Below, piece after piece: positions 3,592 to 11,574 of a DNA stretch of 64,000 bases. Numbering within the stretch: the stretch's first letter is position 1; each line of letters opens with the position of its first letter. The notes under the pieces are model-generated. The model was not told where the DNA came from and ran no database searches. It saw nothing but the letters and a program-made list of their open reading frames with translations. Origin of the DNA: Adhaeribacter swui (GTDB lineage: Bacteria; Bacteroidota; Bacteroidia; Cytophagales; Hymenobacteraceae); NCBI RefSeq assembly GCF_014217805.1, contig NZ_CP055156.1:930001-994000 (forward strand), given 5' to 3'. Made by a program: the position numbers and the translations under genes.

Positions 3592-6500
3592 ATGACTTCA
3601 ACTTTACCCCGACAGCGTACCCCTTTTCGGCTTTTCTTTTTTTTACCGGCAAGTTGGCGCTTGTTCTTGTTTTTATTTTTTTTTAAAATTTTTGCTTTTT
3701 CGGTAGTTGCCCAACCTGCTCTGGTAAAAAAATGGGATAAAACTTTAGGCGGCACCGCCGACGATTACCTTAGCGTTACGGTACCTACCCCCGATGGTGG
3801 CTATTTACTGGGCGGCACTTCGTATTCTACGAAAAGCGGCGACAAAACCCACGAAAACTACGGCGAAGCCGATTGCCACCATAACACTTGTTACTTTACT
3901 TCCGAAGATTACTGGGTAATAAAAATTGATGCCGACGGGCAAAAAGTATGGGATAAAACCTACGGCGGCCGGGGCAGCGATCAGTTAAAAGCCATGGTAG
4001 CCTTACCAGAAGGCGGTTACCTGTTGGGCGGCATATCGTACTCCAACACCAGCGGCGACAAAAGCGCCAACAGCAAAGGATACAGTGATTACTGGGTAAT
4101 TAAAATAGATTTATACGGTAATAAAATCTGGGACCGCACCTATGGCGGCTCCAGCGCCGACGATTTAGTTAGTATTTTACCTACGCCGGATGGCGGCTTT
4201 CTGCTGGGTGGCACTTCTTTTTCGGGCATAGAAGGCGATAAAACTGACATGAACCGCGGCGAAAACACCTCGGACTACTGGCTTGTAAAAATAGATAGGA
4301 ACGGCACCAAGCAATGGGACCAAACCTACGGTGGCAGCAACACCGATTATCTTACTTTTTTAGCAGCTACGCCGGATGATCAAATTTTGGTAGGTGGCTC
4401 TTCTAACTCGCGGGTGAGTGCCGACAAAACCGCGCCCAATAAACAAACTGCCCTGGCCAAAGCCGAAAATACCTACAATGGCTGGATTTTAAAAATAGAC
4501 CAACGCGGCCATAAACAGTGGGATAAAACCTACGGTTTCTCTAACCGCGATAATCACCTGGCGGCCATTTATTACCAACCGGAAACCAAAAAATTTATTA
4601 TCGGCGGCTCGGCGGCTGGTTTATCGCTTACCGATTACGACTACGATTACCTGGTAGCCGAAATTGATGCCACCGGCAACGAAACCTGGCTTACTACTTA
4701 CGGCGGAGAAAGTAACGATTTTTTGAGTACCATTGCTCCGGCGCCTAATGGCAATTTTATCATTGGCGGCACTTCCACCTCTAAAATTAGTAAGAACAAA
4801 ACCGAAAAAAGCCGGGGCTACGAAGATTTCTGGCTCGTGCGCTTAGCGAATACCCAAAAAGTATGGGACAAAACCGTAGGCAGCCATAGTTCCGATAACT
4901 TGCGCTCGGTGCTTTTTACAGCCGATGGCGGCTATTTACTGAGCGGAACTTCCATTTCGGGCCGGGGGCCGGATAAAAGCGAAAGTAGCCGGGGTGGCCG
5001 GGATTTTTGGGTTGCTAAATGGCAAGATGCGGCTCCGCCTGCTCAAGAAATTGCCACCTTCCGGTACGGCAACTCTAAAAACGATAATTTCACCCAAATA
5101 ATTAAGACCGGCGACAACGGATACCTGCTCGGTGGCTATTCCGAACCGGCTAACTCCAATGAGCCAACAATTCCGGGTCGCGGCGGCCTGGACTACTGGG
5201 TAGTAAAAACCGATGCCTCGGGTAAAGAAGAATGGCGTAAGCGCTTTGGCGGCCCTGAAAATGATTACCTCAACAGCATCATGCAAACCCCGGATGGGGG
5301 TTATTTGCTGGGTGGCAGTTCCGAATCGGGGGTCGGCGGCGATAAATCGGGCGTTAGCCGGGGGGACCGGGATTTTTGGGTAATAAAAATTAGTCGAAAC
5401 GGTACTAAAGAATGGGACCGTACCTTTGGCGGCAGCGGCTTCGAAGATTTGCGGCAGATCCGGCAATTTGCGTCGGGCAACTATGTATTGGGTGGCTATA
5501 GCATTTCGTCGGCCGGCGACGATAAAAGCGAAGACAGCCGAGGCGGTTACGACTATTGGGTTGTAATCCTGAATCCGCGGGGCAATAAAATTGCGGACTA
5601 CAGTTTCGGCGGAAATGCTCACGATTACCTGCAGGATGTACTGGTAAACCCCGACGGCAGTTTACTCCTGGGAGGCACGTCGGTGAGCGGATTAAGCGGC
5701 GATAAAAGCCAACTGAGCCAGGGCGGCGCCGATTACTGGATTGTTAAAGTAAGTCCGGATGGGCAGCGGCTTTGGGATAAGTGTTACGGCAGCTCCGAGC
5801 AAGACCACTTATCTGCCCTGGCGGCTATGGGCGATACTTACATACTGGCGGGTTACAGCAACTCGCCGGTTAAAGGCAACAAAACGCAAAACAGCCAAGG
5901 TGGCAACGATTTTTGGGTAATAAAAATTAACAATCAAGGCCAGCAATTATGGGATAAAACCTACGGTGGTAACGGCCCCGATGAATTACGGTCGATAGCC
6001 GTAACTACTACCGGCAGTTTACTTTTGGGCGGCACCTCAGCCTCGGAAACAGGCGGCGACAAAAGCGAGAACAGCCAGGGAAGCACCGATTATTGGCTGA
6101 TTAAAACCAACAGCGCCGGCGCCAAACAATGGGACAAACGCTTTGGCGGCAGCGGCCCAGACGAACTGCGTACCATCGTACAAGCCAACGACGATAGCTA
6201 CCTGCTCGCAGGCCGCTCCAATTCCGAAATCAGCGGCGACCAAACCCAGCCTTCCCTGGGCCTTACGGATTACTGGCTCGTAAAAGTACCCGAATCGGTT
6301 ATTACCTCGCCCCGCTACTTCATTAAACCAAATTCTGCCACTTTAAGCACTAACGAGGTTAAGTTACTCCAGGCTTTTCCCAACCCCTTTCAGGACAAAG
6401 TAACCATCCGTTTTAGCTTACCCATAACCCAAACCGCAACCCTGCGGGTACTCGACAGCCAGGGAAATGAAGTTACCAGCTTATACCAAGCAGAAGCCCA

Positions 6501-6832: not shown

Positions 6833-8302
6833 ATGAAAAAAAAACCAACCCATTTACCCTGGCGTTTAGGGCTTGAAGTAAGAAAGAGCGGCGCCTTACA
6901 CCTTTGCGCTCTACTGATTATTATTTTAAATTTTATGCCATTAGCCCACGCCCAAAATGTAATATGGGACAAAACCCTGGGTGGGAATCGCTCCGATAAA
7001 TTAAATTCTTTTCAGTTAACCCGCGATGGGGGGTACATTCTGGCAGGTACTTCCAACTCCGATCAATCTGGCGATAAATCTCAAGGAACTAAAGGCGGTA
7101 AAGATGTTCATGATGTTCCACTGGATGATTATTGGGTAATAAAGCTTAATAAAGATGGCAGCAAAGCCTGGGATAAAACTTTCGGCGGAACCGGTTCCGA
7201 AATTTCGACTGCCGTACAGCAGACCACTGATGGGGGCTATATCCTTGGCGGCTGGTCAAATTCAGGCAAATCCGGAGATAAAAGCGAAGATCCCAGAGGC
7301 ATAAAAGAGTCTGATTTATATCCTTATGATTATTGGGTTATAAAGCTAAGCGAGGATGGCAGTAAAGCTTGGGATAAAACTTTTGGCGGAACCGATTCCG
7401 AGTATTTAACTTCTATCCAGCAAACCAGTGATGGAGGCTACATTCTCGGTGGCAGTTCCGCATCGGGTATAAGTGGCGACAAATCGCAAGCCAATAGAAG
7501 CAATACAAGAGGCAGCACTGATTATTGGGTTATAAAGCTAAACGCCGATGGTAGTAAAGCTTGGGATAAGACCATTGGTGGCTCCGACAACGATAATTTA
7601 GCATCTGTACAACAAACTTCCGATGGCGGTTATATCTTAAGTGGGAGTTCTAGCTCTAGCAAAAGTGGTGAAAAATCAGAGAATAACCGAGAAGATTACA
7701 ATGGGTTTTCACATACTAATGATTATTGGGTAGTAAAACTAAATGCTAATGGCAACAAAGTTTGGGACAAAACTTTTGGCGGAGATGCAAACGATAGGTT
7801 AAACAGTATCCAGCAAACCCAAGATGGCGGTTACATTCTAGGTGGCTTTTCTCAATCTGGTAAAAGCGGGGATAAAACAGATACCAAACGCGACAACTCC
7901 TATACTTACTCTGATTATTGGGTAGTTAAAATTGACAAGAATGGTACTAAAAAATGGGATACTACGGTTGGCGGAAATTTCGGAGACGATTTACAAGCAC
8001 TATTACAAACCCCTACCGGAGAGTTTATTTTGGCAGGCAATTCTGCTTCTAATATTAGTGGTGAGAAATCGGAAAATAATCACGGCGATGAATATACCAA
8101 GGATTATTGGATAGTAAAACTGAGCTCAACCGGTAAATACATTTACGATAAATCCTTTGGAGGGAACGGAGATGAAACACTTACCAGTTTGCAACAAACT
8201 TCGGAAGGAGTTTTGGTGCTGGGGGGGTTTCTGAATCAGATAAAAACGGGGATAAATCGGAAATTAATAAAGGTCGTAGATTTACCAGTGACTTTTGGAT
8301 AG
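6833..8302 (+). CDS. Array gene 2, 5' fragment: signal peptide and first propeller (frameshifted)
   Basis: 489 codons. Signal peptide 1-40 (A40|Q41) is nearly identical to that of the gene at 23429. Seven repeats follow, from VIWDKTLGG to YIYDKSFGG. In the seventh, the frame is lost at a run of seven G (8221-8227): the protein reads LGG then FLNQIKTG and stops at 8302. Adding one G restores LGGVSESDKNGDKSE and the rest of the blade, joining smoothly to the downstream frame. The sister gene at 15015 has LGGVSES at the equivalent site, which fixes where the shift lies. As written, this fragment lacks the Ig module, two propellers and the T9SS tail, so it could not be sorted by T9SS. It is either phase-variable, decayed, or a homopolymer sequencing error. 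Confidence 0.85.
   Translation: MKKKPTHLPWRLGLEVRKSGALHLCALLIIILNFMPLAHAQNVIWDKTLGGNRSDKLNSFQLTRDGGYILAGTSNSDQSGDKSQGTKGGKDVHDVPLDDYWVIKLNKDGSKAWDKTFGGTGSEISTAVQQTTDGGYILGGWSNSGKSGDKSEDPRGIKESDLYPYDYWVIKLSEDGSKAWDKTFGGTDSEYLTSIQQTSDGGYILGGSSASGISGDKSQANRSNTRGSTDYWVIKLNADGSKAWDKTIGGSDNDNLASVQQTSDGGYILSGSSSSSKSGEKSENNREDYNGFSHTNDYWVVKLNANGNKVWDKTFGGDANDRLNSIQQTQDGGYILGGFSQSGKSGDKTDTKRDNSYTYSDYWVVKIDKNGTKKWDTTVGGNFGDDLQALLQTPTGEFILAGNSASNISGEKSENNHGDEYTKDYWIVKLSSTGKYIYDKSFGGNGDETLTSLQQTSEGVLVLGGFLNQIKTGINRKLIKVVDLPVTFG
8221..8227 (+). other. G7 homopolymer at the frameshift point
   Basis: Seven consecutive G. Eight G would give a continuous frame of about 1580 codons from 6833 to 11574, matching the 7+Ig+7+7 architecture of the paralogues. 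The downstream frame is open from 8228 without a stop. Confidence 0.8.
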
Positions 8303-8472
8303 TAAAGGTTGAGGATAATATAATAAAAAATCAAACCATTACTTTCGAGCCCATCTATAACCAGGTAGTAGGCAGCCCGGCTATTTCGCTGCAGGCCAAA
8401 GCCAGCTCCGGCTTACCCATTACCTACGAAGTACTGTCGGGCCCAGCCACGGTTAAAGATAACCAACTAACC

Positions 8473-11400
8473 GTGTTTGCCGCTGGTCCGGTTCGTATAG
8501 CGGCTTACCAGAAAGGCAATGCAACGTATAAACCCGCCGAACAAACCCAAAGCTTTCTGGTTACCCTGTCGGGCAAACAAAACGACTGGGCTTTTGGCGG
8601 CAATCAGGCCGATACTTTAGCTACCATGATCCCTACCCCCGACGGCGGTTACTTACTGGGCGGCACGTCGCGCTCCGGTAAATCCGGTGATAAAAGCCAG
8701 GCTAGCCAAGGCAGTTCCGATTACTGGATTTCTAAAATCAGCAAAACCGGCCAGAAACAATGGGATAAAACGTTTGGCGGCAGCCAGACCGATCAACTCT
8801 CGGCGCTGGTAGCCACTCCCGATGGCGGCTACTTACTCGGGGGTACTTCTACTTCCGGCAAAACCGGCGACAAAAGCCAGGCCAGTAAAGGCAGCTCCGA
8901 TTATTGGCTGGTAAAAATTGACGGAGCAGGCAATAAGCTCTGGGATAAAACTTACGGTGGCAGCGGCAAAGACGAGTTAGCGGCTATACTGGTAACGAAA
9001 CAGGGCTATTTACTCGGCGGCAGTTCCGCTTCGGGTACTTCATCCGACAAGAGCCAAAGCAGTAAAGGTAAAACCGATTACTGGATAATAGAAATTGATG
9101 CGACCGGTAACAAACTCTGGGATAAAACCTACGGGGGCAGCCAGGACGATCAACTAGCTGCATTGCTGGCCAGCCCCGAAGGTGGTTTTCTGGTGGGCGG
9201 CAGTTCGGCATCAGGTACCTCCGGCGATAAAAGCCAATCTGCCCGGGCTAATGTCGATTACTGGGTAATCCGGATAGATGAACAAGGCACCAAGCTCTGG
9301 GACAAAACCTACGGCGGTAAAAAAGGCATCCGCTTTAACGATGCCTGGAATTATGAAGCGGGCTATTCTTACCTCAGCACACTTACGGCGACTCCCGATG
9401 GTGGCTACCTGGTGGCGGGTTCTTCCAGCGCTTCCAAAGGCTTCGAGAAATCCGAAGACACCCACGATCATTTTTATGAAGTGGCCGATTACTGGATTTT
9501 AAAAATAAACAAGCAGGGCGAAAAAATTTGGGACAATGCTTACGGCAGTGTTACCACCTTTGCCGAAATAGATTTTGGCCGCGAGATTGGCAGTTCGCAA
9601 CTAAGTGCGGTAGTACCCTTACCCGAAGGCGGCTATCTACTGGCGGGTACTTCAGAGGCATACCGCGGTCGGGATAAAAGTGAAGAGAACCGCCGGAATA
9701 CGTTAAAAATTAGTCCCGAATACCCGAACACTACCGAACAGCAATATGCGCTTTGGAACGACTACTGGATTATCAAAATAGACGAACAGGGTAAAAAGCT
9801 GGAAGACCGTACGCTGGGCTCTGCTCAGAACAATACATTAGTAGCCGCCGCCAGAACCCCGGAAGGCAACTTTATGCTGGCCGGCTATTCCGAATCTGGC
9901 ACTAACAATGATAAAAGCTCAGCTAGTAAGGGTGCTACCGATTACTGGCTCGTGCAAGTAGCTGGCCGTAAAGTACCAGAACCTACTACCGCCGCTTGGG
10001 ATATGCTATTTGGCGACGAGAAAAACGATAACTTTACCAGTGTAATTAAAACCACTGACGGTGGTTACTTAGCCGCTGGCTACTCTAAATCTACTTACGT
10101 TAGAGACGGAGAGACATTTTTTCAAGGAAAGTTTAACTACTGGATTGTAAAAACAGACAAAAGAGGGCACAAATTGTGGGACAAAACTTACGGAGGGCAG
10201 GCCGATGATTACCTGAACAGCGTTATCCAAACCCAGGACGGTGGCTACCTGCTGGGTGGTTCTTCTTTGTCGGGTAAAAGTGGCAATAAATCGCAGGATA
10301 GCCGCGGCGACCGCGATTATTGGATCATCAAAGTAGATGCCCAAGGCAATAAACAATGGGACAAAACCTACGGCGGCAGCAAATACGACGAACTTAAAAA
10401 AGTAGTACAGTTAGCTTCGGGCGAGTACGTGTTGGGCGGCTACAGCAACTCCCCTACCAGCGGCGACAAAACCCAGGGCAGCCAAGGCAACACAGATTAT
10501 TGGGTCGTAAAAATTTCAAAAAACGGCACCAAACTCTGGGATAAGCGCTACGGGGGTACTAACCACGATAAACTGGGTAGCTTTACCGAAACCAGCGATG
10601 GCGGGTTTTTACTGGTAGGGGGTTCCCTGTCGGGCAAAAGCGGTGATAAAAGCCAGGCTAATCCAACTAACCTTGGGGGAAATACCGACTATTGGGTGGT
10701 AAAAACCGATCAGCACGGCAACCTGCTCTGGGACAAAACTTATGGTAGCTACGAAAACGATGATGCATACTCCGTAGCCCGCAGTGGCAACGATTTTTAC
10801 ATTTCGGGTACGAGTTATTCTGATAAAGGTGGAAGCAAAAGCCAAAATAGCCGGGGCGGTAAAGATTACTGGGCAATTAAGATAGATGCCCAAGGCAATC
10901 AACTCTGGGATAAAACCTTTGGGGGCAGCCAAAATGATGAGTTAAGCGCCAGTTCCGCCAGTAACGATGGCGGATTAGTTTTAGCTGGTTCTTCTTATTC
11001 CGGCAACAGTGGCGACAAAAGCCAGGACAGCCGGGGCAGTAGCGACTACTGGATAGTAAAAGTAGATGCTGCCGGCAAGCAGGTGTACGATAAACGCTTT
11101 GGTGGCAATGGTACTGATGAACTGCGCGCTGTACTGCATACCAATGATGGCGGCTTACTGCTGGGCGGTACCTCCGACTCAAACAGCAGTGGCGAACATA
11201 GCCAAAGCAGGTATGGTGGCACCGATTACTGGCTCGTGAAAGTAGCCCCGGAAACGTTACCGATGGTAGCAACTACCCAGGGAAATTCAGCTATTGCTGC
11301 AGAAGGTAAGCATTTAACTTCATTACTGGCTTACCCCAACCCATTCAGCGATAAACTAACCATACGATTTACTTTACCCGAAACCCAATCGGTTACCCTG

Positions 11401-11574
11401 CGGGTACTCGATAGCCAAGGCAAAGCAGTAACTACTTTGTTCCAACAAGAAGCCCAAGCCCAGCAGCCGTACGAGGTAGAGTGGCAAGCCAGTAAGCAAG
11501 AAGCCGGTTTTTATTTGCTGCAACTAGTAACATCTACGGAACAAAAGACTATAAAATTACTCTTGAGAAAGTAG
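8473..11574 (+). CDS. Array gene 2, 3' fragment: rest of Ig module, two propellers and T9SS tail
   Basis: The first usable start is a GTG at 8473, but it lies inside the Ig-like module. The same frame is open back to the G7 run, where it encodes the end of blade 7 and the start of the Ig module (TITFEPIYNQVVGSP ... KASSGLPITYEV). This is therefore the continuation of the 6833 gene rather than an independent one, and it has no signal peptide of its own. Two seven-repeat propellers follow (from NDWAFGG at about 8576, and from AAWDMLFG at about 9991). Blades 5 and 6 of the first have long insertions, as in the genes at 15015 and 23429. The T9SS tail starts near 11326 (LLAYPNPF) and ends KLLLRK. 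Confidence 0.85.
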   Translation: MFAAGPVRIAAYQKGNATYKPAEQTQSFLVTLSGKQNDWAFGGNQADTLATMIPTPDGGYLLGGTSRSGKSGDKSQASQGSSDYWISKISKTGQKQWDKTFGGSQTDQLSALVATPDGGYLLGGTSTSGKTGDKSQASKGSSDYWLVKIDGAGNKLWDKTYGGSGKDELAAILVTKQGYLLGGSSASGTSSDKSQSSKGKTDYWIIEIDATGNKLWDKTYGGSQDDQLAALLASPEGGFLVGGSSASGTSGDKSQSARANVDYWVIRIDEQGTKLWDKTYGGKKGIRFNDAWNYEAGYSYLSTLTATPDGGYLVAGSSSASKGFEKSEDTHDHFYEVADYWILKINKQGEKIWDNAYGSVTTFAEIDFGREIGSSQLSAVVPLPEGGYLLAGTSEAYRGRDKSEENRRNTLKISPEYPNTTEQQYALWNDYWIIKIDEQGKKLEDRTLGSAQNNTLVAAARTPEGNFMLAGYSESGTNNDKSSASKGATDYWLVQVAGRKVPEPTTAAWDMLFGDEKNDNFTSVIKTTDGGYLAAGYSKSTYVRDGETFFQGKFNYWIVKTDKRGHKLWDKTYGGQADDYLNSVIQTQDGGYLLGGSSLSGKSGNKSQDSRGDRDYWIIKVDAQGNKQWDKTYGGSKYDELKKVVQLASGEYVLGGYSNSPTSGDKTQGSQGNTDYWVVKISKNGTKLWDKRYGGTNHDKLGSFTETSDGGFLLVGGSLSGKSGDKSQANPTNLGGNTDYWVVKTDQHGNLLWDKTYGSYENDDAYSVARSGNDFYISGTSYSDKGGSKSQNSRGGKDYWAIKIDAQGNQLWDKTFGGSQNDELSASSASNDGGLVLAGSSYSGNSGDKSQDSRGSSDYWIVKVDAAGKQVYDKRFGGNGTDELRAVLHTNDGGLLLGGTSDSNSSGEHSQSRYGGTDYWLVKVAPETLPMVATTQGNSAIAAEGKHLTSLLAYPNPFSDKLTIRFTLPETQSVTLRVLDSQGKAVTTLFQQEAQAQQPYEVEWQASKQEAGFYLLQLVTSTEQKTIKLLLRK

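Follow-up and report, generated by a model that had tools for sequence, protein, structure and literature searches.

A gene within a tandem array of secreted β-propeller proteins of Adhaeribacter swui is divided into two open reading frames at a run of seven G, which raises the question of whether the break is a reversible switch of protein display, a site of recoding, the onset of genuine gene decay, or a base missing from the assembly. This question was addressed using the window, a 64,000-nucleotide stretch of DNA (C3:930001-994000) from a genome of 6.23 Mb in three contigs, together with the remainder of that genome and genomes of related bacteria.

Results

The G7 run lies at positions 8221-8227 (+ strand) of the window, and codon usage reveals a coding signal on both sides of it but in different frames (0.32 upstream, 0.33 downstream), one base short of a continuous frame; the frame break claimed in the earlier note is thus real in the assembly. 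The upstream ORF (6833-8302, + strand, 489 amino acids), which aligns with its paralogs over its length, encodes a signal-peptide-like N terminus and seven repeats of a predicted β-propeller, with the paralog alignment placing the break at the LGG motif of repeat 7 in this first propeller. The downstream frame is open from stop to stop over 8176-11571 (feature 8176-11574, + strand); its first listed start is at 8473, and its coding signal is carried by the part after 8228. It contributes the end of repeat 7, an Ig-like domain, 7+7 further repeats, and a C-terminal sorting domain (11328-11571, + strand) that is present only in this piece and scores above the curated cut-offs for PF18962 (41.9 versus 27 bits) and TIGR04183 (37.1 versus 23 bits), identifying a type A cargo of the T9SS. 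Reading the site one base longer yields LGGVSESDKNGDKSE and joins the two ORFs into a gene of 1581 codons, in agreement with the approximately 1580 codons proposed previously, and compares with 1505-1558 codons from start to stop for the intact long paralogs of the same array. Repeat counts from the translation also agree with the proposed layout, in which the Ig-like domain follows seven repeats and precedes 7+7. Both flanks of the break are free of further damage. A genuine break would be expected to prevent normal export and anchoring of both pieces.

The array comprises twelve T9SS-secreted propeller genes (window positions 3592-51836), and approximately 32 genes of the family occur in the whole genome. 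The repeats match NF047494 weakly, with scores of 31-118 bits against a curated cut-off of 400, and the first propeller domain, modelled from nine related segments, is predicted to fold as a multi-blade β-propeller (mean pLDDT 76) with CylK as its best match in the PDB. Among the named matches of the family search are Hymenobacteraceae, for example Adhaeribacter and Pontibacter. Three complete genomes of the same genus hold comparable numbers of family matches (at least 110 each), and others in the genus hold few. No ortholog close enough to follow the G7 site between species was found, the best match being 63% within the genome and 61% in the same-genus genome G003.

Four of the approximately 32 family genes in the genome are broken. 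Three of these, namely the window gene and the genes at C3:4131707 and C3:5899508, lack one G at an LGG motif (G7, G6, and G6), and the fourth combines a TGA stop with a one-base loss at an A run. One-G-short breaks as in this genome occur also in the family genes of the complete same-genus genomes G003 and G006; the family arrays of G003, G005, and G006 contain three such breaks (G5, G5, and G4) and four in-frame stops, and the break near C2:4108850 in G003 involves more than a homopolymer change. Among approximately 41 family ORFs in mostly short-read contigs there were no breaks, numbers that are too small to be conclusive. The in-frame stops suggest real pseudogene formation, such that real inactivation also happens in this genome and its relatives, but the frameshifts in the family are uniform in character.

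In-frame stops in otherwise intact propeller genes of this and the same-genus genomes were seen near positions 4888 and 9891 of L160, 5156 of L173, 17261 of L176, and 7936 of L155.

The earlier note leaned towards poly-G slippage as a switch, whereby reversible slipping between G7 (off) and G8 (on) would control display of the secreted propeller protein. A surface or secreted product, a poly-G run within the coding sequence, an intact downstream frame, and the fact that breaks at the same LGG motif affect three family genes are all in keeping with such a switch. However, the tract of seven G in the assembly, or eight if the gene is intact, falls below the cut-off of nine or more that PhasomeIt applies to G/C contingency tracts (PMC5953494). 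Tracts of G7 or longer are not enriched in the family, with 5 observed versus 5.5 expected from within-gene synonymous codon shuffling; the excess in "other" genes (28 observed versus 10.8 expected) reflects ascertainment, these loci having been chosen for their tracts. Moreover, the frame is kept at the six other G7-8 tracts of family genes, the breaks are losses only, and the same break affects unrelated intracellular or housekeeping-type genes. Neither the tract counts relative to shuffles nor the tract length gave any sign of G runs kept as switches, and no evidence of reversible switching was found in the one assembly, making phase variation at this site highly unlikely. There is only a very slight chance that the repeated LGG motif, through its short G runs, provides many weak, independent slip switches by which cells would display different subsets of the array, in a genome with more than 100 family matches.

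In the case of recoding, a -1 ribosomal frameshift or slippage of RNA polymerase at G GGG GGG would yield the full-length protein from the G7 gene. CTG GGG GGG constitutes a heptamer of the X XXY YYZ type in the correct frame and direction, and an AAGGAG (8205-8210, + strand) that was weighed as a recoding stimulator ends 10 nt before the G7 run, a spacing equal to that of the dnaX frameshift stimulator. This arrangement is probably due to chance; Bacteroidota as a rule rely little on Shine-Dalgarno pairing, which counts against a role for AAGGAG. Furthermore, RNA structure downstream of the run is not above chance (z ~ +0.3 versus shuffles), the intact paralogs are continuous and lack the signal, and no such element is present at the other breaks that were read. 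Recoding, considered on account of the dnaX-like spacing, was rejected in view of the missing downstream structure and conservation, and we give it hardly any credence. Phase variation and recoding are both unlikely.

Breaks of the same kind were found elsewhere in the genome, both at the long G tracts and through an ab initio frame-switch scan of 2.09 Mb taken in pieces. The candidates of the scan were then read individually, which removed many antisense and gene-boundary artefacts. Among 65 tracts of G7 or longer in the genome, a clear change of coding frame, based on codon usage on either side, occurs at three, each of them one G short: the G7 run of the window, an α/β hydrolase (esterase) at C1:72498, and a T9SS gene at C3:5644865. 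The esterase is one G short within its HGGGW motif, a Pfam scan of its separate halves returned matches, and an intact homolog with 90% identity is present in a same-genus genome. The T9SS gene is one G short at a G10 run; each relative searched contains a homolog, mostly with an uninterrupted reading frame, and those examined carry no break at the site. At shorter runs, a SusC-type TonB-dependent receptor (C3:924903, - strand, ~5 kb upstream of the window) is one base short at G4, with its Plug domain divided between two ORFs; a rhomboid protease (C3:3401235; L265 near 9234, + strand) is one base short at G4 in the GASG catalytic motif, continuous in each of the nine relatives that were examined; and a Big_5/T9SS gene (C3:3800079) is likewise one base short at G4. 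An ABC ATPase (C3:2383552) is broken just after its P-loop at T6/A4. In total, at least eight genes of the assembly, including the window gene, lack one G, in G runs that range from 4 to 10; the break counts are lower bounds and not a random sample, as family breaks were sought deliberately and the G7+ loci were picked for their tracts.

The breaks are strongly skewed in direction and base. All 10 of the resolved homopolymer breaks in the genome are one-base losses and none is a one-base gain, for which the chance is ~0.001 if loss and gain are equally frequent and ~0.03 given a 70% bias towards loss. Coding tracts of G6 or longer account for 5 breaks in 143, and no break was recognized at coding A7+ (647) or T7+ (290) tracts, approximately 937 in all. 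In each of the eight G-run breaks the G is on the coding strand, an outcome with a probability of ~0.04 for a strand-symmetric error. Undercalling of G runs is not universal, as the frame is continuous across four of the five coding G9-G10 tracts.

The in-frame G9-G10 tracts (C3:1436773, 4313950, 5628047, and 5770204, in L106, L123, L136, and L138) include Nudix-like and kelch-like proteins. These are long enough for the phase-variation cut-off and would be better switch candidates than the G7 run.

The main rival to an assembly error is a true deletion of one G through replication slippage, that is, a recent and fixed loss of function in one of approximately 32 redundant paralogs marking the onset of a pseudogene. 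The in-frame stops in the family, one in this genome and four in same-genus relatives, are real and leave room for the plain decay that had been named as an option; G runs are natural slip sites in which the family is rich because of its glycine codons, and the gene is one among many similar copies. Against this, nothing else is damaged on either side of the G7 break, and the one-base-short pattern extends to conserved genes kept by relatives, even at G4, always as losses and never at long A/T runs. We consider decay possible but doubtful.

Discussion

We propose that a sequencing or assembly slip, rather than an on/off switch, most probably accounts for the G7 break, because conserved, unrelated genes of this assembly show the identical loss of one base. 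With 6.2 Mb in three contigs, the assembly appears to be long-read based. In long-read assemblies, homopolymer indels are the main errors, most of them false deletions (PMC12007338, PMC9262707), and a large survey of frame transitions concluded that a sequencing error, and not a real indel, is the expected cause of isolated cases with full-length homologs (PMC3711429). The present breaks follow this pattern, in that like breaks affect the esterase, the T9SS gene, and the rhomboid protease, whose relatives are unbroken at these sites, and losses outnumber gains. Losses only, mostly at G runs, some of them just four bases long, and in genes retained by relatives, are what consensus undercalling characteristically produces. 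Slippage in the cell would be expected to favor long runs, to yield gains as well as losses, and to be rare at G4.

According to this proposal, the living strain would carry a normal gene of 1581 codons for a T9SS-secreted propeller protein, and the assembly would miss one G, the run having been called one base too short. Such a call would be a typical residual error of long-read consensus, recurring in the G runs of 4 to 10 of this assembly. That the missing G is owed to sequencing or assembly and not to the DNA is held with moderate confidence only, because the G lies on the coding strand in every one of the eight G-run breaks. In addition, A/T runs were more error-prone than G/C runs in a nanopore study (PMC12007338), the opposite of the pattern seen here.

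The earlier note gave an accurate account of the sequence and included the right alternative, a homopolymer read error, which the recurrent one-base-short defects now favor; its leaning towards a slippage switch is not backed by the length of the tract, enrichment in the family, the in-frame tracts, or the other broken genes. As a biological event the G7 break is most likely not real, and its main use is to flag the quality of the assembly. In this genome and related complete ones, a split gene is not to be taken for a switch or pseudogene until its G runs have been checked against accurate reads, and the breaks found here allow the error rate of the assembly to be measured directly. If mixtures of G7 and G8 were confirmed, the tandem propeller array could be considered as a means of varying the surface of a free-living bacterium.

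Comparison with known systems places the protein and the break as follows. The protein resembles the T9SS-secreted SBBP-like β-propeller proteins in its weak NF047494-like repeats and its TIGR04183/PF18962 tail above cut-off, and is unlike them in that its repeats score far below the NF047494 cut-off. CylK is nearest to the predicted propeller fold of the first domain, a match that implies no enzymatic role. The locus shares with the poly-G contingency loci of Neisseria and Campylobacter a G run within the gene, a secreted or surface protein, and an intact frame after the run, but differs from them in its run length of 7 (8 in an intact gene) against a cut-off of 9, in showing neither tract enrichment nor gains, and in being seen here in a single assembly. 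Compared with the homopolymer false deletions of long-read assemblies (PMC12007338, PMC9262707, PMC8812927), the breaks differ in falling almost only in G runs, all on the coding strand, and are alike in that losses of a single base from a run split unrelated genes whose relatives are intact.
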